Source of the DNA: Litorivivens lipolytica | GTDB taxonomy: Bacteria > Pseudomonadota > Gammaproteobacteria > Pseudomonadales > Spongiibacteraceae | Length of the DNA stretch: 64,000 nucleotides | Reading direction: 5' to 3' | Assembly: GCF_014191715.1 (NCBI RefSeq) | Contig: NZ_JACHWY010000001.1 | Location: forward strand, 186,001 to 250,000 | Shown here: positions 7,337-64,000 of the stretch, one piece after another | Numbering within the stretch: position 1 is the stretch's first letter | Layout of the letters: each line of letters starts with the position of its first letter | Notes under the pieces: generated by a model | Told to the model about the DNA's origin: nothing | What the model saw: the letters and a program-made list of their open reading frames with translations, nothing else | The model's database searches: none | Program-made: the position numbers and the translations under genes

Positions 7337-7931
7337 TCTGTTTGATACGTTTGAGTTTCCGCTGCTGACTGCGGGCGTCGACGAAGTTGGGCGCGGTCCG
7401 CTGGCCGGGGATGTGGTAACTGCGGCGGTGATTCTCGATCCGGACAAGCCCATTGTGGGTTTGAACGACTCCAAGAAACTGACCGAGAAAAAACGACTGG
7501 CCCTGTTTGATGAAATTCGAGAAAAGGCTCTGAGTTACAGCATTGCCCGTGCCTCTATCGACGAGATCGACAGTCTGAATATTCTGCAGGCCAGCTTGCT
7601 CGCCATGAAGCGGGCGGTGGAAGCGCTGCCGGTTCAACCGAAATATGTTCTGGTAGACGGTAATCGCCTGCCGAAATGGCAGTACCCGGCGCAGGCGGTG
7701 GTGAAGGGCGACAGCCTGCATCCCTGCATCGGGGCTGCGTCCATTCTGGCCAAGGTCACCCGCGATGCGGAAATGGACGCGCTGGCCGAGCAGTACCCCG
7801 AGTATGGTTTCGCCAGCCACAAAGGCTATCCTACCAAGGTTCATCTGAACGCCTTGCGCGAACATGGCATTACGCCTTTTCACCGACGCTCCTACGCGCC
7901 GGTACGGAAAATTGTCGAGGAGCTTTCATGA
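7329..7931 (+). CDS. rnhB: Ribonuclease HII
   Basis: Removes RNA from RNA-DNA hybrids and single ribonucleotides from DNA. The 200-residue protein has the type-2 RNase H signature at residues 16-24 (GVDEVGRGP, with metal ligands D18 and E19) and a later acidic ligand in VLVDGNRLP. The C-terminal [18 protein letters not shown] with FHRRSYAPV is typical. It overlaps lpxB at its start (8 bases) and dnaE at its end (ATGA), the common lpxB-rnhB-dnaE arrangement. Confidence 0.96.
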
Positions 7932-10900
7932 CCGGTTTCGTTCACCTCCGCGTACATTCCGAATATTCCCTGTCAGACGGCATCGTTCGTATCAAGCCGC
8001 TGATCAAAAGTGTCAGTGAGCTGGGCATGCCGGCGGTGGCACTGACTGACCGTTGCAATTTTTATGCGCTGATTAAATTTCACAAGGCCTGCTATGGCGC
8101 TGGCGTAAAACCCATTTACGGTAGCGACTTTTACCTGCGCGACGAACACGACCCGGAACATATCAGTCAGATTGTGGTGCTGGCCCGCAATAACGACGGC
8201 TATGCCAATATGCGGGTGCTGATTTCTCGCGCTTATCAGGAAGGCCAGCAGCAGGGTAAGGCCTATATTCAGCGGCAGTGGCTGCGTGAGCACGGAGAGG
8301 GTTTGATCGTACTTTCCGGCGGCCGCGAAGGTGATGTTGGGCAGTATCTGTTATCGGGCAAGCGCGATCTTGCAGTTGAGTGTTTGCGCGGCTGGATGCA
8401 GGATTTTCCCGATTGCTTCTATCTGGAATTGCAGCGAACCCACCGCGAGTATGAAGAGGACTATCTGCACGCGGCGGTAGAGTTGGCAGCAGAGATGAAC
8501 TGCCCGGTCGTTGCTACCAACGACGTGCAGTTTCTCAAAGCCGAAGAATTCGAAGCCCACGAAACCCGTGTGTGTATTGCCGATGGTCGAACGTTGGATG
8601 ATCCTCGCCGTCCGCGTCGCTACAGCGCCGATCAGTATCTGCGCTCGCCGGAAGAAATGGCGGAGCTGTTTTCCGATATTCCGGAAGCGTTAGAAAACAC
8701 GGTCGAAATTGCCAAGCGCTGCAATGTCGAGATTGAACTGGGTACTTACTACCTGCCGGAATATCCCATCCCGGAGGGCATGACCCAGGACGAATTTTTC
8801 CGCCAGCTTTCCCATAAAGGTCTGGATGAGCGCTTGGCCTTTCTGTTCGATACCAGCGCGCCGGACTTTCCGGAAAAGCAAAAAGAATATCGGGACCGAC
8901 TCGACTTTGAGCTCGATATCATTTTGCAGATGGGCTTTCCCGGCTACTTCCTGATCGTAATGGACTTTATCCAGTGGGCCAAAGACCACGGTATTCCGGT
9001 AGGTCCGGGCCGGGGGTCCGGTGCCGGCTCACTGGTCGCTTACGCGCTGAAGATTACCGACCTAGACCCGATTGAATACGACCTGCTGTTCGAGCGCTTT
9101 TTGAATCCCGAGCGGGTCTCGATGCCCGACTTTGATGTCGACTTCTGTATGGAAGGCCGCGACCGGGTGATTTCCTATGTGGCGGATCACTACGGTCGCG
9201 ATGCAGTCAGTCAGATCATCACCTTCGGCACCATGGCGGCGAAGGCTGTTGTGCGCGATGTGGCGAGGGTGCAGGGCAAGCCCTACATGGTGGGCGACAA
9301 GCTTTCCAAACTCATCCCCTTCGAAGTGGGTATGACTCTGGAAAAAGCCTACGAGCAGGAAGAGGCTCTGCGTCAGTATCTCGAGGAAGACGAAGCGGGT
9401 CAGGAAATCTGGGATATGGCCCTCAAACTTGAGGGTATTACCCGGGGCGTTGGCAAGCACGCCGGGGGCGTGGTCATTGCGCCTTCCAAGCTGACCGATT
9501 TCTCGCCGCTGTTTTGCGACGAAACCGGCAGCGGTCTGGTTACCCAATACGACAAAAACGATGTGGAAGAGGCGGGCCTGGTCAAGTTCGACTTCCTTGG
9601 TCTGCGTACCCTCACCATCATCGATTGGGCGCTGGAAATCATCAATGGCAAGCGCGCCAAAGTGGGTGAAGAAGTGCTCGACATTATGGCGATTCCGCTG
9701 GACGACGCCGATAGCTTTACGCTGCTGAAGCGCGCTGAAACCACCGCGGTATTCCAGCTTGAATCCCGCGGTATGAAGGATCTGATCAAGCGCCTGCTGC
9801 CGGACCGTTTTGAAGACATCGTCGCACTGGTGGCCCTGTTCCGTCCGGGGCCGCTGCAGTCGGGGATGGTTGATGACTTTATCAACCGGAAGCACGGCCG
9901 TGAAGAGCCGTCTTATCCTCACCCCCAATACCAGCACGAATGCCTGAAACCGATTCTTGAGCCCACTTACGGCATCATCCTGTATCAGGAGCAGGTCATG
10001 CAGATCGCCCAGGAAATGGGCGGCTACTCGCTTGGCGGCGCTGACTTGCTGCGGCGGGCTATGGGTAAGAAAAAACCGGAGGAAATGGCTAAGCAGCGAC
10101 AATTGTTTCTGGATGGCGCCACCGGCAAAGGGTTTGATAAGGATCTCGCCTCCAATATCTTCGACCTGATGGAAAAATTTGCGGGCTACGGTTTTAACAA
10201 ATCGCACTCTGCCGCCTACGCGCTGGTTTCCTATCAGACGGCGTGGTTGAAAGCTCATTACCCGGCGGAATTTATGGCCGCGGTCATGAGTTCGGAATTG
10301 GATAACACGGACAAAATCGTAACCTTCATCGAAGAATGTCGGGCGATGAGGTTGCCGCTCAAATTGCCGGATGTGAATCAGGGCGAGTACAAGTTCACGG
10401 TTAACGATGACGGCGAAATTATCTACGGCCTCGGCGCGATTAAAGGTCTGGGGGAAGGCCCGGTTGAAAACCTGATCGCCGCGCGCAAGGAAGGCGGTCC
10501 GTTTAAAAACCTGTTCGACTTCTGTACCCGCACTGATCCGCGCAAGGTAAACAAGCGTGCACTGGAAGCCCTGATACGTGCCGGTGCCTTTGATTCACTC
10601 GGCGAAGACCGCGCGGTATTGATGGCCAGTTTGCCGGAAGCCGTGAAGGGGGCCGAGCAAACTGCCAAGAATGAAGAGGCGGGCATGCTCGATATGTTCG
10701 GCGAAACACTGGCCGCTGATGATCGCGATGTGTACGAAGATTTTCGCAATGTGCGCCGTTGGAATACGCGAGAACGGTTGCAGGGAGAGAAGGATACACT
10801 CGGGCTGTATGTCACCGGTCATCCAATTGATGACTACGAAGCCGAGATTCGCCAGTTTGTACCCAAGCGGATCGTCGACCTGAAGCCCGATAACCAGAAC

Positions 10901-54349: not shown

Positions 54350-54491
54350 GCAACTACCTTCTTGAATTATTTAAAGATTATAGAATGGTAACTATAGCAC
54401 GGCTTTTCACCGCGCAGACAGCATGCTTTACTAGCGCGCCGCTGTGGGAGACCCGGCGAGAAGAACGCAAGTACAGTATTGGGAAGGGAAC

Positions 54492-55268
54492 ATGAATCGA
54501 GTTAAAGACAAGGTCTGTATCGTAACGGGTGCCGCCAGTGGCATGGGGCGTGCAGATGCCGTGATGCTGGCGTCTGAGGGTGCCAAGGTGGTACTGACAG
54601 ACCTGAATGAGAAAGATGGTCAGGCTGCAGCCGCTGAAATCGGTGATAACGCTGTTTTCGTTAAACACAACGTCACCAGCGAAGACGACTGGAAAACCGT
54701 CATCGAAACCGCGGTTTCCCGTTTTGGCGGGCTGGATGTGCTGGTCAACAATGCCGGCATGATGACCATGGGGTCCGTCGTGGATTGCACCCTTGAGGAT
54801 TATCGCAAGGTCAATGCGGTTAACAGCGAAGGGGTATTCCTGGGCTGTAAGTACGCCATTCCTGCTATGGAGAAGACCGGACGGGGCGGCTCCATTATTA
54901 ATATGTCCTCGGTAGCGGCGCTGCACGGGATGTCATTTATCGCGGCCTACAGTGCCAGCAAGGGTGCCGTGGCGGCGCTGACCAAATCTGTCGCACTGCA
55001 TTGTCGTGAGAAGCGCAACGGCATTCGCTGTAACTCTATCCACCCTGACGGTGTAAAAACGCCGATGGTGTTTAAAGTAGCGACTGGAGCAGAATCTGCT
55101 ACCCGCGAGGAGATCGAATCCCTGTCGACCGAAGCCAACCCCATGTGTGAGCCGGAAGATATCGCTGCACTGGTGGTTTATCTGGCTTCTGATGAATCCA
55201 AGTTCGTCAATGCGGCTGAAATGCTGATTGACAATGCGGCAACGGCAACCCCGCCGATTGGCGTGTAA
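54492..55268 (+). CDS. Short-chain dehydrogenase, hydroxysteroid-dehydrogenase-like
   Basis: 258-residue classical SDR: TGAASGMG (12-19), Asp in VLTDLN (NAD preference), NNAG at about 88, catalytic Y153 and K157 (YSASKGAV). It resembles the bacterial 3-alpha/20-beta hydroxysteroid and cyclic-alcohol dehydrogenases. C-terminal residues AEMLIDNAATATPPIGV depart from the usual DGG ending. ATG 54492 is preferred (GGGAAGGGAA upstream) to an earlier in-frame start at 54444. It is convergent with the MerR gene, with a shared terminator between them. Substrate class is an inference. Confidence 0.88.
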   Translation: MNRVKDKVCIVTGAASGMGRADAVMLASEGAKVVLTDLNEKDGQAAAAEIGDNAVFVKHNVTSEDDWKTVIETAVSRFGGLDVLVNNAGMMTMGSVVDCTLEDYRKVNAVNSEGVFLGCKYAIPAMEKTGRGGSIINMSSVAALHGMSFIAAYSASKGAVAALTKSVALHCREKRNGIRCNSIHPDGVKTPMVFKVATGAESATREEIESLSTEANPMCEPEDIAALVVYLASDESKFVNAAEMLIDNAATATPPIGV

Positions 55269-55331: not shown

Positions 55332-56171
55332 TTAGGTGTCTCGACTGGATTCCAGGGTCTTCATAATGCCTTCGAGCTGGTCGGCGAGAATATTGCTGGC
55401 GGCCATTTCCATGGCGCGGCCGAGCTCGGCCTTAACCACAATCTCGGCCATGGGGCGCATGCGCCAGATCAGGTCGATAATCTTGGGGAATTCTTCCTTC
55501 GGGGGCAGGGACTGCTGCTGATAAGGCTTGAGTACATTGTCGGAAATCAGCCGCACAAACTCCTTTGCGACTTTTTCCACATTGTCTCGGCTCATGCGCA
55601 GGATTTCCAATTGGTCCCCCATGGGAATGCCCATTGCGCACAGGTCTGCCGCGACCTTTAAGGTGCTCATACTGCTCACTCTAACCTGGGTTCCCTGCAC
55701 TTTGGCTATGCCCAGTTCACCGGCGAGCCGGATGTTGGCGGGGGTCAATTGAGTGCCGAACATCTTGACCATCTGGGTCATAGGAATGACTTCCGCCGCT
55801 TCTTTGGCCCAGGGGCTGTTAATTGCGGACTCCATTCCGAGAATCTCTGGCAAGCCGATACCCTGTTCGAGGCCGGAAATCAGATCGAGAATGCTAGCGA
55901 GTGTATAGCCACGATCTAACAGGTTGGCGATAACCCGCAGTCGCGACAGGTGCTGATTGTTATAGATACCTTTGCGGCCGCGCAGGGCAGGGGGAGGCAA
56001 CAGCCCTTTGTCCTGGTAAGCGCGGATATTGCGCACCGAGGTGTTGGCTGCCAGTGCCAGTTCTTCCACCGTGTATTCATGCTTTTCTTCCAGCGATACC
56101 GCCTCATCGACCGCGTCGTTCTGTTGGCGGTATTGGGCCATGTTCTGGATGGTTTCTTCTGGAAACTTCAT
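55332..56171 (-). CDS. MerR-family transcriptional regulator
   Basis: 279 residues. The MerR winged helix is at about 33-100: YTVEELALAANTSVRNIRAYQDKGLLPPP and RLRVIANLLDRGYTLASILDLI (each read in the usual order; helix-turn-helix then coiled-coil dimer helix). The C-terminal part of about 170 residues is not a metal-binding loop and has no visible Cys cluster, so an organic effector is likely. The gene is divergent from the TonB receptor gene, with 313 bases between, and is the obvious candidate regulator for the receptor-monooxygenase cluster. Confidence 0.88.
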   Translation of the reverse strand: MKFPEETIQNMAQYRQQNDAVDEAVSLEEKHEYTVEELALAANTSVRNIRAYQDKGLLPPPALRGRKGIYNNQHLSRLRVIANLLDRGYTLASILDLISGLEQGIGLPEILGMESAINSPWAKEAAEVIPMTQMVKMFGTQLTPANIRLAGELGIAKVQGTQVRVSSMSTLKVAADLCAMGIPMGDQLEILRMSRDNVEKVAKEFVRLISDNVLKPYQQQSLPPKEEFPKIIDLIWRMRPMAEIVVKAELGRAMEMAASNILADQLEGIMKTLESSRDT

Positions 56172-56357: not shown

Positions 56358-56420
56358 TTGACATCAATTAATGATAAGATGTATGTTACATCAAATGATG
56401 ATACATATAATGATGTGTCA
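56358..56420 (+). promoter_or_regulatory. AT-rich promoter and operator region before the TonB receptor
   Basis: The 313-base gap 56172-56484 holds no gene; its right half is strikingly AT-rich. TTGACA (56358-56363) with TATGTT (56382-56387, spacer 18) is one promoter; a perfect TATAAT (56406-56411) without a proper -35 is another. A perfect 6-3-6 dyad, GATGTA-TGT-TACATC (56378-56392), overlaps the first -10 and lies at the -35 of the second; further TGAT/ATCA-like pieces follow to 56420. This suits a regulated, possibly MerR-controlled promoter. Which promoter is used cannot be told. Confidence 0.5.
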
Positions 56421-56484: not shown

Positions 56485-58959
56485 ATGAAAGCGTTCCGAT
56501 TGCTTCCGCTAGCGGCCCTTGGTTTGGGCCTGGTTCCACTCTCCGTTCAGTCCAAGGCCGTTCTGGAGGAGGTTATTGTGACCGCTCAGCACCGCGCCCA
56601 AAGTTTGCAGGATGTGCCGGTTTCGGTCAGCGCGATTGGCGGCGACAAGATGATCGAGGCGGGCATCAACCGTATGGAAGATCTGCAGGCCTACGTGCCC
56701 AATCTCACCGTCACCGAGAGCGGTATCAGCACTGATATTTTTATTCGCGGTATCGGCACCGGTATGAATCAGGGCTTTGAACAGTCAGTTGGCATGTATG
56801 TCGACGGTATTTACTACGGCCGCGCCCAGCTGGCGCGGGCGCCCTTTCTGGATCTGTCACGGGCCGAGGTACTGCGCGGTCCGCAGAACATTCTGCACGG
56901 CAAAAACAGTATCGCCGGCGCCGTGAATCTGCATACCGCCAATCCGGGGCAGGAATTCGAGGGTTTTGTATCCGCCTTGTACGAACCGGAGTTCGACGAG
57001 CGGGTATTTGATCTGGTGCTGTCAGGCCCGATTACCGACAAGTTTGGTGCCCGCTTTGCCGCTCGGCTTCGGGATTACGGCGGCTATGTCGAAAACCTGA
57101 CGCTGGATCGCTTCGGCCCCCAGCACGATCAGGCGACCTTTCGTTTGAAACTGCACTGGGAGGTCGATGACGATACTACCGCCTCGCTTAAACTCGAGTC
57201 GGGCAAATTTGACAGCTTAGGGCGTCACGGCGAAGTTATCCGGGATGACCCCTCCACATCGTCTACTTTTTTGTTTGCCGGTCGCACCGAAGCGGAAATT
57301 CTTGATCGCACCTTCTTCCCGCCGTTTGTAGACGTGGATACCGATGAATCCGTGCGCAACAACTATCAGGACTATAAAGGCAGTTCCAACGGTAATTTCA
57401 GCAACAACGATACGGCCAATATCACACTCGATGTAACCTGGCTGTCGGATGCGGGTAACGAGTTCAAATCCATTACCGGCCTTATGGCTTACGAATACGA
57501 TGACCTCTGTGACTGTGACTCCACCGCCGCGCCTCTATTCAAGCTGGCGCTGGCGGAGGAGTACTGGCAGTTCAGTCAGGAGCTGCGCTGGATGTCGCCG
57601 GTAGGCGAGCCGATTGATTACATCGGCGGGGTGTACCTGCAGCGCACCGATCTGCGCTTCAATGACAAACTGATTCAGGATTCGCCGGTTGTTGTTGGGC
57701 TGATTAATGCCGCCGACTTTCAGGATGGGGGGACCCGCGGGGACTATGACCCGAACCCTCTGGGGATAGCGCCAGAGGAGGTGGCGGGCATTGGTGATGC
57801 CGGCAATGCGGTAGCCAATATTACAGCGCCGCGGGAGTTTACCAGCGTCTCGGATATTGCCTCGGCCTTTATGCAGGCGACCTTTAACCTCTCCGAAACC
57901 TTTCGGTTGACGCTGGGTGGCCGTTACACCTACGAACACAAAACCGGTAGCCGCAGTCTGGATCTGGCCGACCTTAACGGCAACAGCCTGCCCATCGGTG
58001 AAGTGGACACCGTAGCCGCGATCAGTTTCGCGGCAGAACGCCACGATCTGAAAGGCGAGCGCAGTGAAACGCATTTTTCGCCGCTGGTGAATGTGCAGTG
58101 GGATTATTCGCTGGAGGGTATGGCCTATTTTACGGCGACACGGGGTTTCAAAGCCGGCGGCTTTGATGCTCGCTCCAATCAATCGCCCAGCGCCGAGTTG
58201 ACTCCGGCCAACCCGAACGCCGCTGTGCCTAACCGGACGTCGCTGGTCGGTACCTTTGAATACGATGAAGAGATTGCCACCAGTTTTGAACTCGGTTTGA
58301 AAACCGGTTTGCTCGATGGTGCGGCCGAGCTGAATATCGCGGCTTTCTACACCATCTACGAAGATCTACAGATCAGCATCTTCGACGGCACCCTCGGATT
58401 TAATGTGGGCAATGCAAAAGAAGCGATTACCCAAGGGATTGAACTGGATGCCCGCTATCAGGTAACGGAATACCTCAGCCTGGGTGGTGCTCTGGCTCTG
58501 CTGGATTTTGAATTCACCGACTTTGAAAACGGCCAGTGCCGTCAGGGACAGACGCCGACGTCGGATAACGGCCTCTACTGTGATTACACCGGCCAAAGTA
58601 ACCAATACGTGGCCGACTGGTCCGGCACCTTCATCATCGGTTATCTGCGCCCCATTAGCGACACATTGGGTCTTGGTCTGACATTGGATGTGGTGTTTAC
58701 CGACGACTACAACCCCTCGTCCAACGTCGACCCTCGCGTTGGGCAGGAAGGATTCACCAAATTCAATGGCCGTATCGGATTCGGCGCGATTGACCAGACC
58801 TGGGAAGTGTCTCTGGTGGGTAAAAACCTGACCGATGAAGCGGTGATTGTTTATGCCGCAGATACCCCGCTCGCCAATACCATTTTCGGCGCCACTACAT
58901 TCACCGGGTTTGTTGAAGCGCCACGTTCCGTTGCGCTGCAGATGACCTATCGCTGGTAA
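56485..58959 (+). CDS. TonB-dependent outer-membrane receptor
   Basis: 824-residue receptor for TonB-driven uptake of a large or hydrophobic substrate. Signal peptide MKAFRLLPLAALGLGLVPLS, TonB-box-like EEVIVTAQ, plug domain (about 40-165: DVPVSVSAIGGDKM, IFIRGIGTG, LRGPQNILHGKNSIAGAVN), then a 22-strand barrel with the C-terminal aromatic (LQMTYRW). I chose ATG 56485, with ACAGGAAG upstream, over an in-frame extension from 56371 that would not encode a signal peptide. It opens the START/monooxygenase cluster and is divergent from the MerR gene. Such receptors are common in lipid and steroid users; the ligand is unknown. Confidence 0.93.
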   Translation: MKAFRLLPLAALGLGLVPLSVQSKAVLEEVIVTAQHRAQSLQDVPVSVSAIGGDKMIEAGINRMEDLQAYVPNLTVTESGISTDIFIRGIGTGMNQGFEQSVGMYVDGIYYGRAQLARAPFLDLSRAEVLRGPQNILHGKNSIAGAVNLHTANPGQEFEGFVSALYEPEFDERVFDLVLSGPITDKFGARFAARLRDYGGYVENLTLDRFGPQHDQATFRLKLHWEVDDDTTASLKLESGKFDSLGRHGEVIRDDPSTSSTFLFAGRTEAEILDRTFFPPFVDVDTDESVRNNYQDYKGSSNGNFSNNDTANITLDVTWLSDAGNEFKSITGLMAYEYDDLCDCDSTAAPLFKLALAEEYWQFSQELRWMSPVGEPIDYIGGVYLQRTDLRFNDKLIQDSPVVVGLINAADFQDGGTRGDYDPNPLGIAPEEVAGIGDAGNAVANITAPREFTSVSDIASAFMQATFNLSETFRLTLGGRYTYEHKTGSRSLDLADLNGNSLPIGEVDTVAAISFAAERHDLKGERSETHFSPLVNVQWDYSLEGMAYFTATRGFKAGGFDARSNQSPSAELTPANPNAAVPNRTSLVGTFEYDEEIATSFELGLKTGLLDGAAELNIAAFYTIYEDLQISIFDGTLGFNVGNAKEAITQGIELDARYQVTEYLSLGGALALLDFEFTDFENGQCRQGQTPTSDNGLYCDYTGQSNQYVADWSGTFIIGYLRPISDTLGLGLTLDVVFTDDYNPSSNVDPRVGQEGFTKFNGRIGFGAIDQTWEVSLVGKNLTDEAVIVYAADTPLANTIFGATTFTGFVEAPRSVALQMTYRW

Positions 58960-58972
58960 GGGAGTTTATTAA

Positions 58973-59635
58973 ATGACTTTGTTCAAAACTGCATTGATAG
59001 GCGTGCTAATGGCTTTGCCGCTACTCGCGAGTGCGGCTGATGGCTGGGAGCTCGAGAAAGATAGTGACGGGGTGAAAGTCTACACCCGTGAGGTAGAAAA
59101 CTCCCAGTTCAAGGCCTTTAAGGGCGAAAGCGTTCTGGAGGTCGAGCTGAACCGGGCGATGGCACTGATGGATGATACCGCCGCCTGTCCGCAATGGATG
59201 CATGCCTGCAAATCGCCGGTGCTGATCCGCAAGCTGACACCACTGAAACGCTATACCTACATGGTGAATGATTTTCCCTGGCCTGCAAAAGATCGCGCGC
59301 TGCTGTTGACCGCGACCATTACCCAGAAGCTGCCCGAACGCGTAGTCACGGTGTCACTGGAAGCGCTGGCGCCGGAAAGTCTTGAGCCCTCTGACCGTTC
59401 AAAACTGCCAGAAGAGAAGGGAGTGGTGTTGATTGAGCAGGCGAAGGGACTGTTTCGCTTCACACCGTTGGGAGACAACCGCACCCACGTCGAATATCAG
59501 ATGCACCTCGACCCGAACGGCACACTACCTGCCTCGCTGGTAAACGCCATGCTGGTAGATACGCCATTCAACACGCTTAAGGCCATGCAGGATATCGTTA
59601 AGGCCGAAAAATATACGGATTTTCGCCCCTTTTAA
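58973..59635 (+). CDS. Secreted START-domain lipid-binding protein
   Basis: 220 residues: signal peptide (ALIGVLMALPLLASA, cleavage after residue 22 or so) and a START/SRPBCC-type domain (WELEKDSDGVKVYTREVENS, PQWMHACKSPVLIRKL, NDFPWPAKDRALLLTATI, FRFTPLGDNRTHVEYQMHLDPNG, the last two in sequence to about residue 185). The helix-grip fold has a large hydrophobic pocket that holds sterols or other lipids in characterised members. Location is periplasmic. It lies 13 bases after the TonB receptor, which suggests that it takes over the imported lipid. Function is inferred from fold and context. Confidence 0.85.
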   Translation: MTLFKTALIGVLMALPLLASAADGWELEKDSDGVKVYTREVENSQFKAFKGESVLEVELNRAMALMDDTAACPQWMHACKSPVLIRKLTPLKRYTYMVNDFPWPAKDRALLLTATITQKLPERVVTVSLEALAPESLEPSDRSKLPEEKGVVLIEQAKGLFRFTPLGDNRTHVEYQMHLDPNGTLPASLVNAMLVDTPFNTLKAMQDIVKAEKYTDFRPF

Positions 59636-59673
59636 TGAACAGGCGGCCAAGTGGCCAACACAAGGAGATTGTT

Positions 59674-60543
59674 ATGACCAACAATGTAATGCCCGTTCGC
59701 AGAAACCTGAATTTTCATCTGCCCGCTGAGCGGATCAGTGACTGGAACCACAACAGCGTTCATATTTCCCACTTTATGAACGCGATGTCGATTTTCTTCC
59801 CGGTAGGTGAACGCTTTTTTATCGATAGCGTACGCCACTACCGTGATCGCGTAAGCGACCCGACACTGCAGGAAGCGGTTAAAGGGTTTATCGGTCAGGA
59901 AGCCATGCACGGTCGCGAACACGAGGAGTACAACGACGCCTTAACCGCGAAAGGTATGCCGGCGGATCGCTACGAGCGCATTGTGCTGAAGTTACTCAAC
60001 TTCTTTCGTCGCTTTACCCCGAAAAGCTCCCAGCTGGCCGGCACGATTGCGCTTGAGCATCTGACGGCGATTCTTGCACACCGCATTCTGGTGGATAAAA
60101 GTCGGCTAGAAGATTGCGAGCCCCGTTACGCCGCCATATGGCACTGGCACGCTCTGGAGGAAACAGAGCACAAGGCGGTCGCCTATGATGTTTATACCAC
60201 GGTAATGAAAAATCGCTTTCTGGGCTATGTGCGTCGCTGTTTCGCTCTAATTATGTCGACAGCCATTTTCTTTATCATGCTGACGCCGTTTTATCTCGGC
60301 ATGGTCGCCCGTGAAAAAGGCCAGCTGTTTAATCTGAAAGGCTGGTGGCAGGTGACTATGTACCTGTGGGGGCCGCGCGGTGTTTTACTGCGGGCTTTAC
60401 CTGACTGGCTGGATTTCTTCCGGCCGGGCTTTCACCCTTGGGATCACGACAACCGAGAATATCTGGCGGAGATTGATAGTCTGGTAACGGAAGTTGAGTC
60501 TTATAAGGCTGAGGCCATCAACACCCAGGGAGCTGCCGCGTGA
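59674..60543 (+). CDS. PF10118-type predicted metal-dependent hydrolase
   Basis: 289 residues of the COG3687/PF10118 family. His/Glu-rich, ferritin-like helices: FIGQEAMHGREHEEYNDAL, TIALEHLTAILAH and WHWHALEETEHKAVAYDVY carry the conserved metal ligands. A hydrophobic stretch at about 190-215 (LIMSTAIFFIMLTPFYLGMV) suggests membrane contact. The name 'hydrolase' is a database tradition; the ligand pattern equally suits a diiron oxygenase. ATG 59674 has AAGGAG 8 bases upstream. Followed by the hydrolase gene with a 4-base overlap (GTGA). Confidence 0.82.
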   Translation: MTNNVMPVRRNLNFHLPAERISDWNHNSVHISHFMNAMSIFFPVGERFFIDSVRHYRDRVSDPTLQEAVKGFIGQEAMHGREHEEYNDALTAKGMPADRYERIVLKLLNFFRRFTPKSSQLAGTIALEHLTAILAHRILVDKSRLEDCEPRYAAIWHWHALEETEHKAVAYDVYTTVMKNRFLGYVRRCFALIMSTAIFFIMLTPFYLGMVAREKGQLFNLKGWWQVTMYLWGPRGVLLRALPDWLDFFRPGFHPWDHDNREYLAEIDSLVTEVESYKAEAINTQGAAA

Positions 60544-61550
60544 GCAGTACAGACGTGAGTGACGTAACAAAGCCCGAACCGGCCTTTGCGGAACTGGAAG
60601 CGCTGTACGCGGCTACGCCGCTGGCAGCGATTGATCGCGATCGGCTGCGCCAGTGGCGACCAGAGTCTTCGCTGTGGGGAAGACTGAAGCCGCTTATCGC
60701 ACGTCGCGCCGGTGCCCGCTTGTGCTGGACTGAGGTTGCTGGTCATCGGATTAACTACTGGGACAGTGGTGCCAGTGACAAACCGGTGCTGGTGCTTATT
60801 CACGGCTTTGGATCGAGCAAGGAAAACTGGTCCTTTCTCAGTGAGCTGATGCATCGAGAATTCCGGATTCTGGCGCCGGATCTTCCCGGTTTTGGTAACA
60901 GCACTTTTCGTGTCGACAGTGATTATCGGGTAGAGACTCAAGCCGAACGCATGGCTGAGTGGCTTAAGCAGCTCGGTGTGGCGTCAGCCTTTATCGCCGG
61001 CAGCTCCATGGGCGGGGCTATTGCCGCCTCGCTCGCGGCGCATCATCCCGCAATGGTAAACGGACTTTGCCTAATGAATGCTGCGGGGGTTCCCGGGACC
61101 CGAATCAGCATGTTGGAAGCAGGGGTGCTCGCGGGCAACAACTACCTAGTGGCTAATCGTCCTGCTGAAGCGCAGCGGGTATTTCAGATCTGTTTTCATT
61201 CCCGAAAACGTCTGCTTGGCGCAGTCTTTGGGTTGTTGATGGGAACTGAAATGGCGCACCGGGCACCCCTCAATCACGCCATTTTTTCAGATCTGGTGTA
61301 TTCGCTGTCGGCGGTGAACGCAAGCCTTCCCCAGGTGAAATCGCCCACCTTTGTGTTATGGGGTGACAGTGATCAGGTGCTGGATGTGAGTTGTGTGGAT
61401 GCCTTTCTTGCGGCGATTCCCCACGCAAAAGCCATGGTGCTGCCGGAAACCGGACACCTGCCGATGGTCGAAAAACCGAAAGATACTGCAACGGTGCTGC
61501 GAGCGTTTTTTAATGCGCAGCACAGCATCGTGCACACGGAGAATCTGTGA
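60540..61550 (+). CDS. Alpha/beta-fold hydrolase
   Basis: 336 residues. Catalytic triad by motif: nucleophile S156 (AGSSMGGA), acid Asp in LWGDSDQVLDV, His in ETGHLPMVEKP. Oxyanion segment LIHGFGSSKENW. An N-terminal extension of about 60 residues precedes the fold. GTG start overlaps the previous stop. Directly before a Baeyer-Villiger-type monooxygenase, so a natural role is opening of the ester or lactone that enzyme makes; this is inference from order. No signal peptide, so cytoplasmic. Confidence 0.9.
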   Translation: MSSTDVSDVTKPEPAFAELEALYAATPLAAIDRDRLRQWRPESSLWGRLKPLIARRAGARLCWTEVAGHRINYWDSGASDKPVLVLIHGFGSSKENWSFLSELMHREFRILAPDLPGFGNSTFRVDSDYRVETQAERMAEWLKQLGVASAFIAGSSMGGAIAASLAAHHPAMVNGLCLMNAAGVPGTRISMLEAGVLAGNNYLVANRPAEAQRVFQICFHSRKRLLGAVFGLLMGTEMAHRAPLNHAIFSDLVYSLSAVNASLPQVKSPTFVLWGDSDQVLDVSCVDAFLAAIPHAKAMVLPETGHLPMVEKPKDTATVLRAFFNAQHSIVHTENL

Positions 61551-63088
61551 TGACAATACGCAGTGATAGCGCAAATGGGCTGCTCGATACCGCCATTGTC
61601 GGTGCCGGGTTTGGTGGCATTGGGCTGGCGATTAAACTCTTACAGGAAGGTGAATCGAGTTTTCGTATTTTTGAAAAGTCCGAGGATGTCGGCGGCGTCT
61701 GGCGCGACAATATTTATCCGGGTGCAGCCTGTGATGTGCCGTCTCACCTATACTCGTTTTCCTTTGAGCCCAACCCGGACTGGAGTCGTACCTTTGGTGG
61801 GCAGGCGGAGATACATCAGTACCTCCAACACTGCGCCGACAAGTATCATCTGTGGGATAAAATCCGCTTCAAGGCAACCGTCGAACGAGCCAGCTTCGAT
61901 GAGAAAGCCAGTATCTGGACGCTGTACTTCGCCGATGGTGAATCTGTACGCGCACGCACCGTGGTGTTTGCGGTGGGTGCATTAAATATTCCCGCCTATC
62001 CCTCGATCCCCGGCCTCGACGCCTTCAAGGGCAAGGTGATGCATACCGCCGAGTGGGATCCTGACTATGATCTCAGCGGCAAAAAAGTTGGTGTTATTGG
62101 TACCGGCGCCAGTGCGATTCAGGTTGTCCCCGAGATTCAGCCAGCGGTTGAGTCGCTTACCCTCTACCAGCGCACAGCGCCCTGGGTTATGCCGAAACGC
62201 GATGGCTGGATTCCACCGGCTTGGCGCAAGCTCTACGCCCGTTTTCCGATTTTGCAAAAGCTGCATCGCATCGCCCAGTACTGGATGTTTGAATCCACGG
62301 CGCCAGTGATGATCAAGAATAATTGGATGACTCGTATGGGGGAGCGCTTGGGACGACGTTACTTGCGCCGTATGATCAAGGATCCGGTCCTGCGGGAAAA
62401 AGTAACGCCGCGCTATGCGCTCGGCTGCAAGCGTGTGCTGCTCTCTGACGATTATTATCCCGCGCTAACGAAACCCAATGTTGAGGTGCTGACCGATGGC
62501 ATTGAGCGGATAGATGAAACCGGCATCGTCAGCCGTGACGGGCGGCATCAAAAGTTGGATGCCATTGTCTTGGCGACGGGCTTTCAGGTGCCGGCCGCAG
62601 GTGCGCCGTTTCCCATCGAGGGAGCGGGAGGACGCTCGTTAAATGAGGACTGGCGCAAAGGGTCTGAGGCCTACCTCGGTATGACCGTCACCGGTTACCC
62701 GAACATGCTCTACATCATGGGGCCAAATACCGGGCCGGGAAATATTTCGGTGATTTTCTATATTGAGTCCCAGCTGCGCTATATCATGGCTTATCTGAAG
62801 CATTTGCGGCAGCGGAATCTCGCCGCGCTGGATCTTAAACCTTCAGTTCAGCAGCAGTTTAACGAGAACATTCAGGCAAAAATGCAGAAGACAACCTGGG
62901 TGTCCGGCTGCGATAGCTGGTACCTGACGGAAGATGGCAAGAACACCACGCTGTGGCCGGGGTACTCTTGGCAATACCGTCTGCAATCAAAGCATTTTGA
63001 TCCTAGCCTCTATGATTGTGTTCGATTGCGTCCCAGTGTTGTCGAACTCAGTGCCGATATCGATGACCGTGTAGCGACCTCAGCCTGA
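61550..63088 (+). CDS. Baeyer-Villiger-type flavin monooxygenase
   Basis: 512 residues, class B flavoprotein monooxygenase. First Rossmann motif GAGFGGIG (about 18-25), FEKSEDVGGVWRDNIYPGAACD, BVMO fingerprint F159-K-G-K-V-M-H165-T-A-E-W169-D, second NADPH Rossmann motif GVIGTGASAIQ. It inserts oxygen next to a ketone to give an ester or lactone. ATG 61550 (1-base overlap with the hydrolase stop) is preferred to GTG 61547; GGAG sits about 8 bases ahead. Neighbours (hydrolase before, SDR after) match alcohol to ketone to ester to acid chemistry, as in mycobacterial mymA-like operons. Substrate unknown. Confidence 0.92.
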   Translation: MTIRSDSANGLLDTAIVGAGFGGIGLAIKLLQEGESSFRIFEKSEDVGGVWRDNIYPGAACDVPSHLYSFSFEPNPDWSRTFGGQAEIHQYLQHCADKYHLWDKIRFKATVERASFDEKASIWTLYFADGESVRARTVVFAVGALNIPAYPSIPGLDAFKGKVMHTAEWDPDYDLSGKKVGVIGTGASAIQVVPEIQPAVESLTLYQRTAPWVMPKRDGWIPPAWRKLYARFPILQKLHRIAQYWMFESTAPVMIKNNWMTRMGERLGRRYLRRMIKDPVLREKVTPRYALGCKRVLLSDDYYPALTKPNVEVLTDGIERIDETGIVSRDGRHQKLDAIVLATGFQVPAAGAPFPIEGAGGRSLNEDWRKGSEAYLGMTVTGYPNMLYIMGPNTGPGNISVIFYIESQLRYIMAYLKHLRQRNLAALDLKPSVQQQFNENIQAKMQKTTWVSGCDSWYLTEDGKNTTLWPGYSWQYRLQSKHFDPSLYDCVRLRPSVVELSADIDDRVATSA

Positions 63089-63107
63089 CAAAAAAAAGGA
63101 TAAACCG

Positions 63108-63941
63108 ATGTTTTCTCTTAAGGATAAAGTGATCGCCATCACCGGTGCCGGTTCAGGTATCGGTTATGCGCTGACCGAGCTGGCCCTCGACGCCGGTGCA
63201 AAAGTCGCCGCGTCTGATATCAAGCCGGATGCGTTGGCCGCGTTGGCAGCTCGTTATCGCCAGCAGCTTCATCAAGCTGTGCTGGATGTGTCCGACCGCG
63301 AAGCTTTTGCTGAATGGTCGCGCGAGGTCGTTGCCCACTTCGGTTGTTGCGATGTCATTATCAATAACGCGGGTGTGTCACTGTCGAGTCGCGTTCAATC
63401 CATGAAACGGGACGATCTGGAATGGATAATGAACATCAACTTTTGGGGCGTGGTGAACGGTGTGGAAGCCTTTCTGCCTCATCTGCTGACGCGACCCGAG
63501 GCGGTGGTGGTTAATATCTCCAGCTTGTTTGGGCTTATGGCGGTGCCGTCTCAATCGGCCTATAACGCAGCCAAATTTGCGGTTCGCGGCTATTCGGAAT
63601 CCATGCGTCAGGACCTGCGAGACACTTCGGTAAAAGTAGTTACCGTTCACCCCGGTGGTGTGAAAACGAATATTGTCGCCAACGGTAAACACTATGAAAG
63701 CCTCGACGGCAGCCACACCAATACAGAAGAATCTGCAGCTATGTTTGAGCGTATCGCCTCGACCACCCCGCAGCGAGCGGCAGAGATCATTCTGCGCGGT
63801 GTCGAGAAGGGCAAGCCGCGCGTACTGATTGGTCGTGATGCAATCTTGCTGGATCTGCTGCAGCGATTTTTGCCCGGTCTTTATGATCGTTTGACTGTGC
63901 CCGTATCACTGCGTGGGCGCCATCGCATGAGCAGTCAGTAG
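63108..63941 (+). CDS. Short-chain dehydrogenase/reductase next to the BVMO
   Basis: 277-residue SDR: TGAGSGIG (12-19), Asp in AASDIK, NNAG (about 84), Y152 and K156 (YNAAKFAVRG), with C-terminal extension of about 30 residues beyond the catalytic fold (LLQRFLPGLYDRLTVPVSLRGR). The FAVRG after the active-site Lys is the form seen in SDRs that accompany monooxygenases and lipid clusters. Likely makes the ketone for the monooxygenase or handles its product. Spaced 19 bases after the monooxygenase gene, with an AAAGGA ribosome site. Confidence 0.9.
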   Translation: MFSLKDKVIAITGAGSGIGYALTELALDAGAKVAASDIKPDALAALAARYRQQLHQAVLDVSDREAFAEWSREVVAHFGCCDVIINNAGVSLSSRVQSMKRDDLEWIMNINFWGVVNGVEAFLPHLLTRPEAVVVNISSLFGLMAVPSQSAYNAAKFAVRGYSESMRQDLRDTSVKVVTVHPGGVKTNIVANGKHYESLDGSHTNTEESAAMFERIASTTPQRAAEIILRGVEKGKPRVLIGRDAILLDLLQRFLPGLYDRLTVPVSLRGRHRMSSQ

Positions 63942-63979
63942 CTGCCGTGGTGCCAAGACATTTTCGATTACCCTCCCTT

Positions 63980-64000
63980 GGCCGAGCTTCGTGCTTGGCC
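63980..64000 (+). terminator. Hairpin at the window end, possible terminator
   Basis: GGCCGAGC (63980-63987) and GCTTGGCC (63993-64000) form an 8-pair stem with one G-T pair and loop TTCGT. It lies 39 bases after the last gene. The T-run that would confirm a terminator would be beyond the window. Confidence 0.4.

Follow-up and report, generated by a model that had tools for sequence, protein, structure and literature searches.

A MerR-linked operon joining a TonB-dependent receptor, a START protein, and a PF10118 protein to predicted Baeyer-Villiger cleavage enzymes in Spongiibacteraceae

Results

The gene set of Litorivivens lipolytica

The gene set described here lies at C1:242-251 kb in the genome of the gammaproteobacterium Litorivivens lipolytica (Spongiibacteraceae). 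Position numbers without a prefix refer to the window, i.e., the whole stretch of 64,000 nucleotides that was analyzed. Six genes on one strand encode, according to the list of open reading frames (ORFs) and Pfam, a TonB-dependent receptor, a START protein, a PF10118 protein, an alpha/beta hydrolase, a type I Baeyer-Villiger monooxygenase (BVMO), and a short-chain dehydrogenase (SDR; SDR1 below). An earlier note, made from the letters of the window, had pictured six closely packed genes facing a MerR gene, and this picture is borne out, as every ORF carries the expected Pfam domains above the Pfam cut-off, the spacings along the set are 13, -1, -4, -4, and 19 bp, and the MerR gene lies divergently on the opposite strand. 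SDR1 is followed at a distance of 5 bp by a seventh co-directional gene (TraF_2 type), which extends past the window. With the start given in Table 1, the receptor has a signal-peptide-like N-terminus, and the START protein has a signal peptide, both judged by eye. Comparison with relatives suggests that the true start of the PF10118 gene could lie 39 bp further on, at 59674.

Table 1. Genes and candidate regulatory features of the locus (positions in the window).
Feature	Position	Strand	Evidence or remark
SDR0, short-chain dehydrogenase, convergent with MerR	54444..55268	+	operon neighbor; nearest structure 1hxh
MerR-family regulator, divergent	55332..56171	-	PF13411 60.4 bits
Sigma-70-like promoter TTGACA - 18 - TATGTT	56358..56387	+	10-of-12 match
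Candidate operator, palindrome TATGTTACAT-N6-ATGATACATA	56382..56407	no strand	overlaps -10 region; present in 20/20 loci
TonB-dependent receptor	56485..58959	+	PF00593 95.7 bits, PF07715 60.1 bits (barrel + plug)
START lipid-carrier protein, secreted or periplasmic (predicted)	58973..59635	+	PF01852 53.6 bits
PF10118 protein, predicted di-iron, oxygenase-like	59635..60543	+	PF10118 286.4 bits
Alpha/beta hydrolase, nucleophile elbow GSSMG	60540..61550	+	PF00561 102.5 bits; nearest structure 6i8w
Type I Baeyer-Villiger monooxygenase	61547..63088	+	fingerprint FKGKVMHTAEWD at residue 160
SDR (SDR1), classical TGxxxGxG + YxxxK	63108..63941	+	PF00106 163.5 bits
TraF_2 outer-membrane-type gene, 384 aa	63947..65101 (L004:13947-15101; window holds 63947..64000)	+	PF13729 46.3 bits

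Conservation within the family and a second set

The family sample comprises 21 Spongiibacteraceae genomes, that of L. lipolytica included, and provides 19 loci of the first type from other genomes; a twentieth relative locus, L054 of genome G007, belongs to a second type of cluster and stands outside these counts. When the gene order was sought in these genomes, MerR-receptor-START-PF10118 was found in identical order at all 19 loci, i.e., in 20 of the 21 genomes with L. lipolytica, and the BVMO is present in 19. START relatives with E <= 2e-47 are encoded in 20 genomes of the sample, own genome included, the exception being G010 with a best value of 2.7e-17. The remaining genes are also frequent at the 19 relative loci: the BVMO at 18 (none found in L056), the hydrolase at 17 (none found in L042 and L053), SDR1 at 17 (no match in L056, while the contig of L037 ends inside the BVMO gene), and SDR0 at 16 (none within the stretches L045, L047, and L055). 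The TraF_2 gene is matched at one, L038, from the same genus. At L039, L041, and L049, the three loci whose interval was inspected, an extra alpha/beta hydrolase gene is inserted between START and PF10118. The MerR-SDR0 interval was inspected at L037, L039, and L041, and only L037, from the same genus, has a gene for a luciferase-like monooxygenase there (7715-8929). An EthD-domain gene follows SDR0 in L039 (4878-5570), from another genus.

A second set is encoded in the same genome at about C1:1592.4-1602.6 kb (1359-11636 of L006, i.e., C1:1591000-1610999). Its order is PF10118-SDR-BVMO-hydrolase-MFS-receptor-START, followed by a SnoaL_4 gene, and a divergent AraC gene lies on the other strand. 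The set of G007 resembles it, with two receptors. As the same modules recur in a different order and with a different regulator, joint function is strongly evidenced. A third PF10118 gene of this genome adjoins an AraC regulator gene and a gene for a 363-aa protein that has no Pfam match (8299-11448 of L005, i.e., C2:220000-239999), and no BVMO match was obtained in its neighborhood.

A shared palindrome in front of PF10118 operons

Between the MerR and receptor genes, the sigma-70-like sequence of Table 1 is the only 10-of-12 match in the scanned region, where promoter-like matches overall are at chance level (6 found versus 6.8 expected). Alignment of 20 MerR-receptor intergenic regions, from the window and the 19 first-type relative loci, reveals one common block consisting of TTGAC (20/20; TTGACA in 17/20) and a 26-bp palindrome with the consensus TATGTTACAT-N6-ATGTAACATA, which in the window lies 18 bp past TTGACA. 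The classic MerR placement between -35 and -10, which would act by promoter twisting, was considered and rejected, as the position of the palindrome, overlapping the region of the -10 element and the start, is repressor-like. The MerR protein probably binds this palindrome and switches the operon, a pairing of regulator and operator that we infer from the sequences.

A matrix built on these 20 sites finds 123 matches of at least 14 bits in 2.37 Mb of loci versus none in one first-order Markov control, where the loci were selected for carrying these genes, the training sites of the matrix are included, overlapping matches are counted separately, and four records are duplicates (L135/L042, L136/L045, L137/L050, and L206/L106). 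In the second genus, 16 of 17 loci have a separate site, outside the training set, directly in front of PF10118 (L047 has 12.8 bits), which suggests that receptor and PF10118 genes belong to two co-regulated transcripts there. Among 30 PF10118 loci listed by a search of the order, a site of at least 14 bits precedes PF10118 in 17 of the 25 from MerR-bearing genomes and in none of the five from genomes without MerR; the PF10118 gene of the window is one of the eight without such a site, its palindrome preceding the receptor gene instead. The p-values calculated in this analysis take related genomes to be independent and so come out too small. A stringent exact pattern occurs at four places in three of 194 genomes of the order, three before PF10118 and one before a receptor. 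Burkholderiales sites are weaker, reach up to 20.1 bits, and lie before the BVMO; at the Ralstonia and Cupriavidus loci no site reaches 14 bits. Neither the second set of the L. lipolytica genome (L006) nor that of G007 (L054) has the palindrome, their best scores being 5.2 and 9.8 bits, respectively. With a looser pattern, the only exact match in the L. lipolytica genome is the site of the window; places with one mismatch lie 30 bp downstream of it and at C1:1618667, and the backward control gives one place.

Wider distribution of the enzyme core

On a wider scale, the neighborhoods of BVMO relatives were compared (best 80 of at least 589; up to 10 kb on each side, 55 of the 80 stretches being at least 20 kb long). 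A PF10118 match is present in 27 of these 80 stretches, 25 of them also with an SDR, so that PF10118-BVMO-SDR groups exist in Pseudomonas and Burkholderiales beyond the Spongiibacteraceae. Relatives of the operon MerR occur in 13 stretches, all with PF10118, from Ralstonia (2), Cupriavidus (1), Paraburkholderia (5), Trinickia (1), and Spongiibacteraceae (4). At six loci from Pseudomonas, PF10118 is accompanied by a BVMO and an SDR, with no match to MerR, and the remaining Pseudomonas loci of these 80 gave no PF10118 match. Matches to both receptor and START occur in three stretches, all from Spongiibacteraceae. As the core is widespread and these matches are confined to one family, the TonB-START import module looks like an addition made within the family. 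At class level, START relatives are encoded in 22 of 369 genomes (28 loci listed, 25 from other genomes), and no other protein of the cluster was found within the flanks of at most 1.5 kb at these 25, so that the START-receptor-PF10118 linkage is seen only in Spongiibacteraceae. The START query matched no viral contig.

PF10118 relatives (E <= 1e-40) are encoded in 54 of the 194 order genomes, with up to 11 copies per genome, and the 28 genomes with a match to the MerR profile are all among these 54. Tandem rows of three PF10118 genes were noticed in one genus of the order (G121:C21:10470-13555, G148:C31:125564-128696, and G192:C7:269869-273017). Locus L157 of Acinetobacter calcoaceticus has a PF10118-SDR-BVMO set next to a group AraC-BVMO-SDR-Abhydrolase_3, whose BVMO is 47% identical to that of the operon. 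This group could be a sad cluster, although it has one Abhydrolase_3 gene and a GMC oxidoreductase gene after the SDR, versus the two esterases that the sad cluster is said to possess.

The PF10118 protein

In 19 aligned sequences, the PF10118 protein has the invariant residues E59, E89xxH92, E141, and E176xxH179, all on predicted helices, besides further invariant glutamates and histidines. These residues conform to the metal-ligand pattern E/D...ExxH...E...ExxH of di-iron oxygenases of the R2/AurF/MMOH type, and their spacing presumably resembles that of class I R2 proteins. The PDB contains no relative by sequence (sole match E 0.34). With a structural model (mean pLDDT 86.2), the nearest chains by VIA are CmlI, AurF, R2, and MMOH at Z 11-12, which is less than the value of about 13 under which this tool advises caution, as helical bundles can mislead there. 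Foldseek with the same model gives no match at E <= 0.001, the best one being an R2-like oxidase at 0.035. We predict that the PF10118 protein is a di-iron protein and probably an oxygenase; the family name "hydrolase" looks wrong.

Cleavage enzymes, carrier, and receptor

The BVMO carries the fingerprint of type I enzymes, FxGxxxHxxxW(P/D), with F160, G162, H166, and W170 invariant in 17 sequences, and its nearest Acinetobacter relatives are 46-47% identical. Its nearest structures are steroid monooxygenase (248.6 bits) and phenylacetone monooxygenase (249.7 bits), with which it scores about equally, and by profile as well (314.4 versus 310.8). For the hydrolase, the nearest structure is 6i8w (172.9 bits), which we take to be a membrane phospholipase A, followed by 4ns4 and ABHD6. 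SDR0, whose counterparts in 13 relatives are 80-92% identical to the first sequence, has as its nearest solved structure the 3beta/17beta-hydroxysteroid dehydrogenase 1hxh (207.5 bits; next 186.5) and is perhaps a hydroxysteroid dehydrogenase, judging from this similarity. Some loci are left out of the alignments: L049, L051, and L052 from A1 and A2, these three together with L037 (contig edge, frame error) and L056 from the BVMO alignment A3, and L046, L049, and L051-L053 from A5.

The START protein exceeds the PF01852 cut-off of 22 bits and is modeled with a pLDDT of 90.6. By VIA this model, which shows the helix-grip fold of START domains, is closest to 3qsz (Z 24.2), and human START proteins follow at about 20 in the order STARD5, STARD4, STARD13, and StAR, with phosphatidylcholine transfer protein at 16.6. 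Foldseek places STARD10, STARD13, STARD5, and CERT first. As the two methods rank the relatives differently, the fold does not decide the ligand class. The receptor contains both the plug (PF07715) and the beta-barrel (PF00593) that characterize TonB-dependent receptors. It is not a member of NF053590 in NCBIfam, the alkane-linked family of TOL_0244 (58 bits, cut-off 645).

Discussion

A proposed uptake and cleavage operon

The earlier note had proposed a dedicated system for the uptake and opening of a hydrophobic substrate. The uptake-plus-cleavage part of this proposal is supported because the gene order is conserved, a second set has the same parts, and promoter and operator are shared. 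The direct results are the gene content, the conservation of its order, the second set, the operator, the folds as predicted, and the pattern of metal ligands. From these we suggest that the operon is controlled by MerR and serves to take up a single class of bulky hydrophobic alcohols or ketones and to cleave it by oxidation, and we assign a probability of roughly one half to this reading. The TonB-dependent receptor would move the substrate across the outer membrane and the secreted START protein would carry it through the periplasm. Inside the cell, a hydroxylation by the predicted di-iron protein PF10118 may follow, whereupon the SDR would oxidize the alcohol to a ketone, the BVMO would insert oxygen to yield an ester or lactone, and the alpha/beta hydrolase would open this product to an alcohol and an acid. 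The whole set would be switched through the promoter-overlapping palindrome, to which MerR probably binds. A wider proposal is more tentative: PF10118 could represent, instead of hydrolases, a di-iron monooxygenase family that provides the first hydroxylation for cleavage by BVMO, SDR, and hydrolase, governed by a MerR regulator of its own and the 26-bp palindrome in gammaproteobacteria and more weakly in betaproteobacteria, the TonB-START line of Spongiibacteraceae being a bacterial counterpart of the delivery by sterol carriers to enzymes that cleave steroids.

A steroid or sterol-like substrate, with for example removal of the C17 side chain as in progesterone degradation, is in our view the likeliest one, although we hold it at somewhat below even odds. 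KshA_C matches are present in 19 of the 21 family genomes, above 200 bits in 18 of them. L. lipolytica has nine in total, and HsaA-, HsaC-, and KshA-like genes stand side by side at 7211-10721 of L222 (C1:1121000-1140900); its genome probably encodes steroid ring degradation. Three Spongiibacteraceae isolates grow on cholesterol (PMC5790920), and a BVMO converts progesterone to testosterone acetate (PMC12239570). The resemblance of SDR0 to 3beta/17beta-hydroxysteroid dehydrogenase and the presence of a START carrier are further hints. Of the 18 genomes that have both the operon and a strong KshA, 17 carry SDR0 at the locus, and neither of the two operon genomes without strong KshA does, so that SDR0, more than the operon, seems to be tied to steroid metabolism. 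Several points speak against a steroid. The HsaC- and HsaA-like matches stay below the NCBIfam cut-offs (284.6 of 450 and 413.9 of 450), and the KshA-, HsaC-, and HsaA-like genes, near C1:1130 kb, are unlinked to the operon. The operon is kept in G003, which has no KshA_C match, and in G015, with only 98.6 bits. The PF10118-BVMO-SDR core extends to Pseudomonas and Burkholderiales, the BVMO is by score as close to phenylacetone as to steroid monooxygenase, and START structure comparison fails to separate ligand classes. Finally, the same chemistry serves long-chain alkanes (PMC6304351) and 2-ketones (PMC12753306).

Alternatively, the operon could be a sad-like cluster for long-chain secondary alcohols or 2-ketones, i.e., for subterminal alkane oxidation, equipped with its own outer-membrane uptake line; we regard this as a serious rival, somewhat less likely than a steroid. 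The identical enzyme trio acts in subterminal oxidation (PMC12753306, PMC13055320, and PMC6304351), and the last of these papers reports for Thalassolituus that BVMO, esterase, and TonB receptor rise together on n-C28. The occurrence of the core in many kinds of bacteria, its position in A. calcoaceticus L157, and the retention of the operon in G003 and G015 point in the same direction. In contrast, the receptor falls outside the alkane-linked TOL_0244 family, a START carrier is absent from the described alkane systems in the portions of those sources at hand, and KshA homologs are abundant in the family.

The uptake reading has also to be weighed against an envelope-lipid or detoxification system resembling mymA, which would modify an endogenous or toxic ketone rather than feed on it. 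In Mycobacterium tuberculosis, the mymA operon comprises genes for a BVMO, a hydrolase, and an SDR with a divergent regulator, the AraC-type VirS. This shared content and the resemblance of the operon hydrolase to 6i8w and then to 4ns4 and ABHD6 favor such a role; however, the TonB-dependent receptor and the secreted START protein point to uptake, and we know of neither an outer-membrane receptor nor a START protein in the mymA operon. The divergent regulator is MerR here and not of the AraC type, although the second set does carry an AraC gene, and altogether this alternative seems improbable. That the genes are mere neighbors without joint function, held together by general synteny, is very hard to credit, for although apparent housekeeping genes in the inspected flanks (by eye ung, ygfZ, nadB, and rpoE) indicate a generally conserved gene order in this part of the chromosome, the modules are reassembled in a different order at the second locus, genes overlap, one operator type stands at two promoters in relatives, and the core is linked in other families and classes.

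Comparison with known systems

The earlier note had further suggested that the system might not be described. For the enzyme trio this does not hold, as the cleavage chemistry (alcohol to ketone to ester to alcohol and acid) is already known from sad-type clusters. In the openly licensed text of PMC, outside of which most subscription papers lie, no description was found of the TonB receptor-START-PF10118-shared operator assembly. Apparently new are the TonB-START module, the 26-bp palindrome before this and other PF10118 operons, which tracks the MerR gene, and the evidence that PF10118, named a hydrolase, is di-iron and oxygenase-like. This family is common and apparently misnamed, and its accession is named by a single paper in the openly licensed text searched. 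The operator offers a handle on what switches PF10118 operons, and the TonB-START pair, as proposed, would bring a hydrophobic substrate by an unusual path from the outer membrane to an oxygenase in the cytoplasm.

The sad cluster of Acinetobacter sp. NyZ410 (Yin et al., 2022, via PMC12753306 and PMC13055320) similarly encodes an alcohol dehydrogenase, a BVMO (SadD), and an esterase, which convert a secondary alcohol via an ester to a primary alcohol and acetate. A dehydrogenase, a BVMO, and an esterase-type hydrolase are likewise encoded together here, with one hydrolase. In contrast to the operon of L. lipolytica, the sad descriptions in the available parts of these sources deal with aliphatic substrates and include no TonB receptor, START, or PF10118 protein. 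Pseudomonas fluorescens DSM 50106 (Kirschner et al., 2007, cited in PMC12753306 and PMC5407406) also employs a BVMO in a secondary-alcohol route; the enzyme acts on open-chain C8 and C10 ketones, and the partial descriptions contain no import module, unlike the operon considered here. The progesterone cluster pdc of the steroid degrader Caenibius tardaugens (PMC12239570) resembles the locus in having a BVMO beside regulators. It consists of this BVMO, a luciferase-like enzyme, and two regulators, and the terms TonB, metal-dependent, esterase, and MerR do not appear in the text of the paper; a luciferase-like monooxygenase is not among the ORFs of the L. lipolytica locus, whereas the gene in L037 recalls the BVMO-luciferase-like pair. 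In Thalassolituus oleivorans, a BVMO, an esterase, an alcohol dehydrogenase, and a TonB receptor are raised on n-C28 (PMC6304351), and their genes are scattered (TOL_0709, 0906, 2772, and 0244) rather than in one operon, with a receptor of another family. That study did not identify which enzyme forms the secondary alcohol when long-chain alkanes are used, and for a step of this kind PF10118 is a candidate that can be tested.

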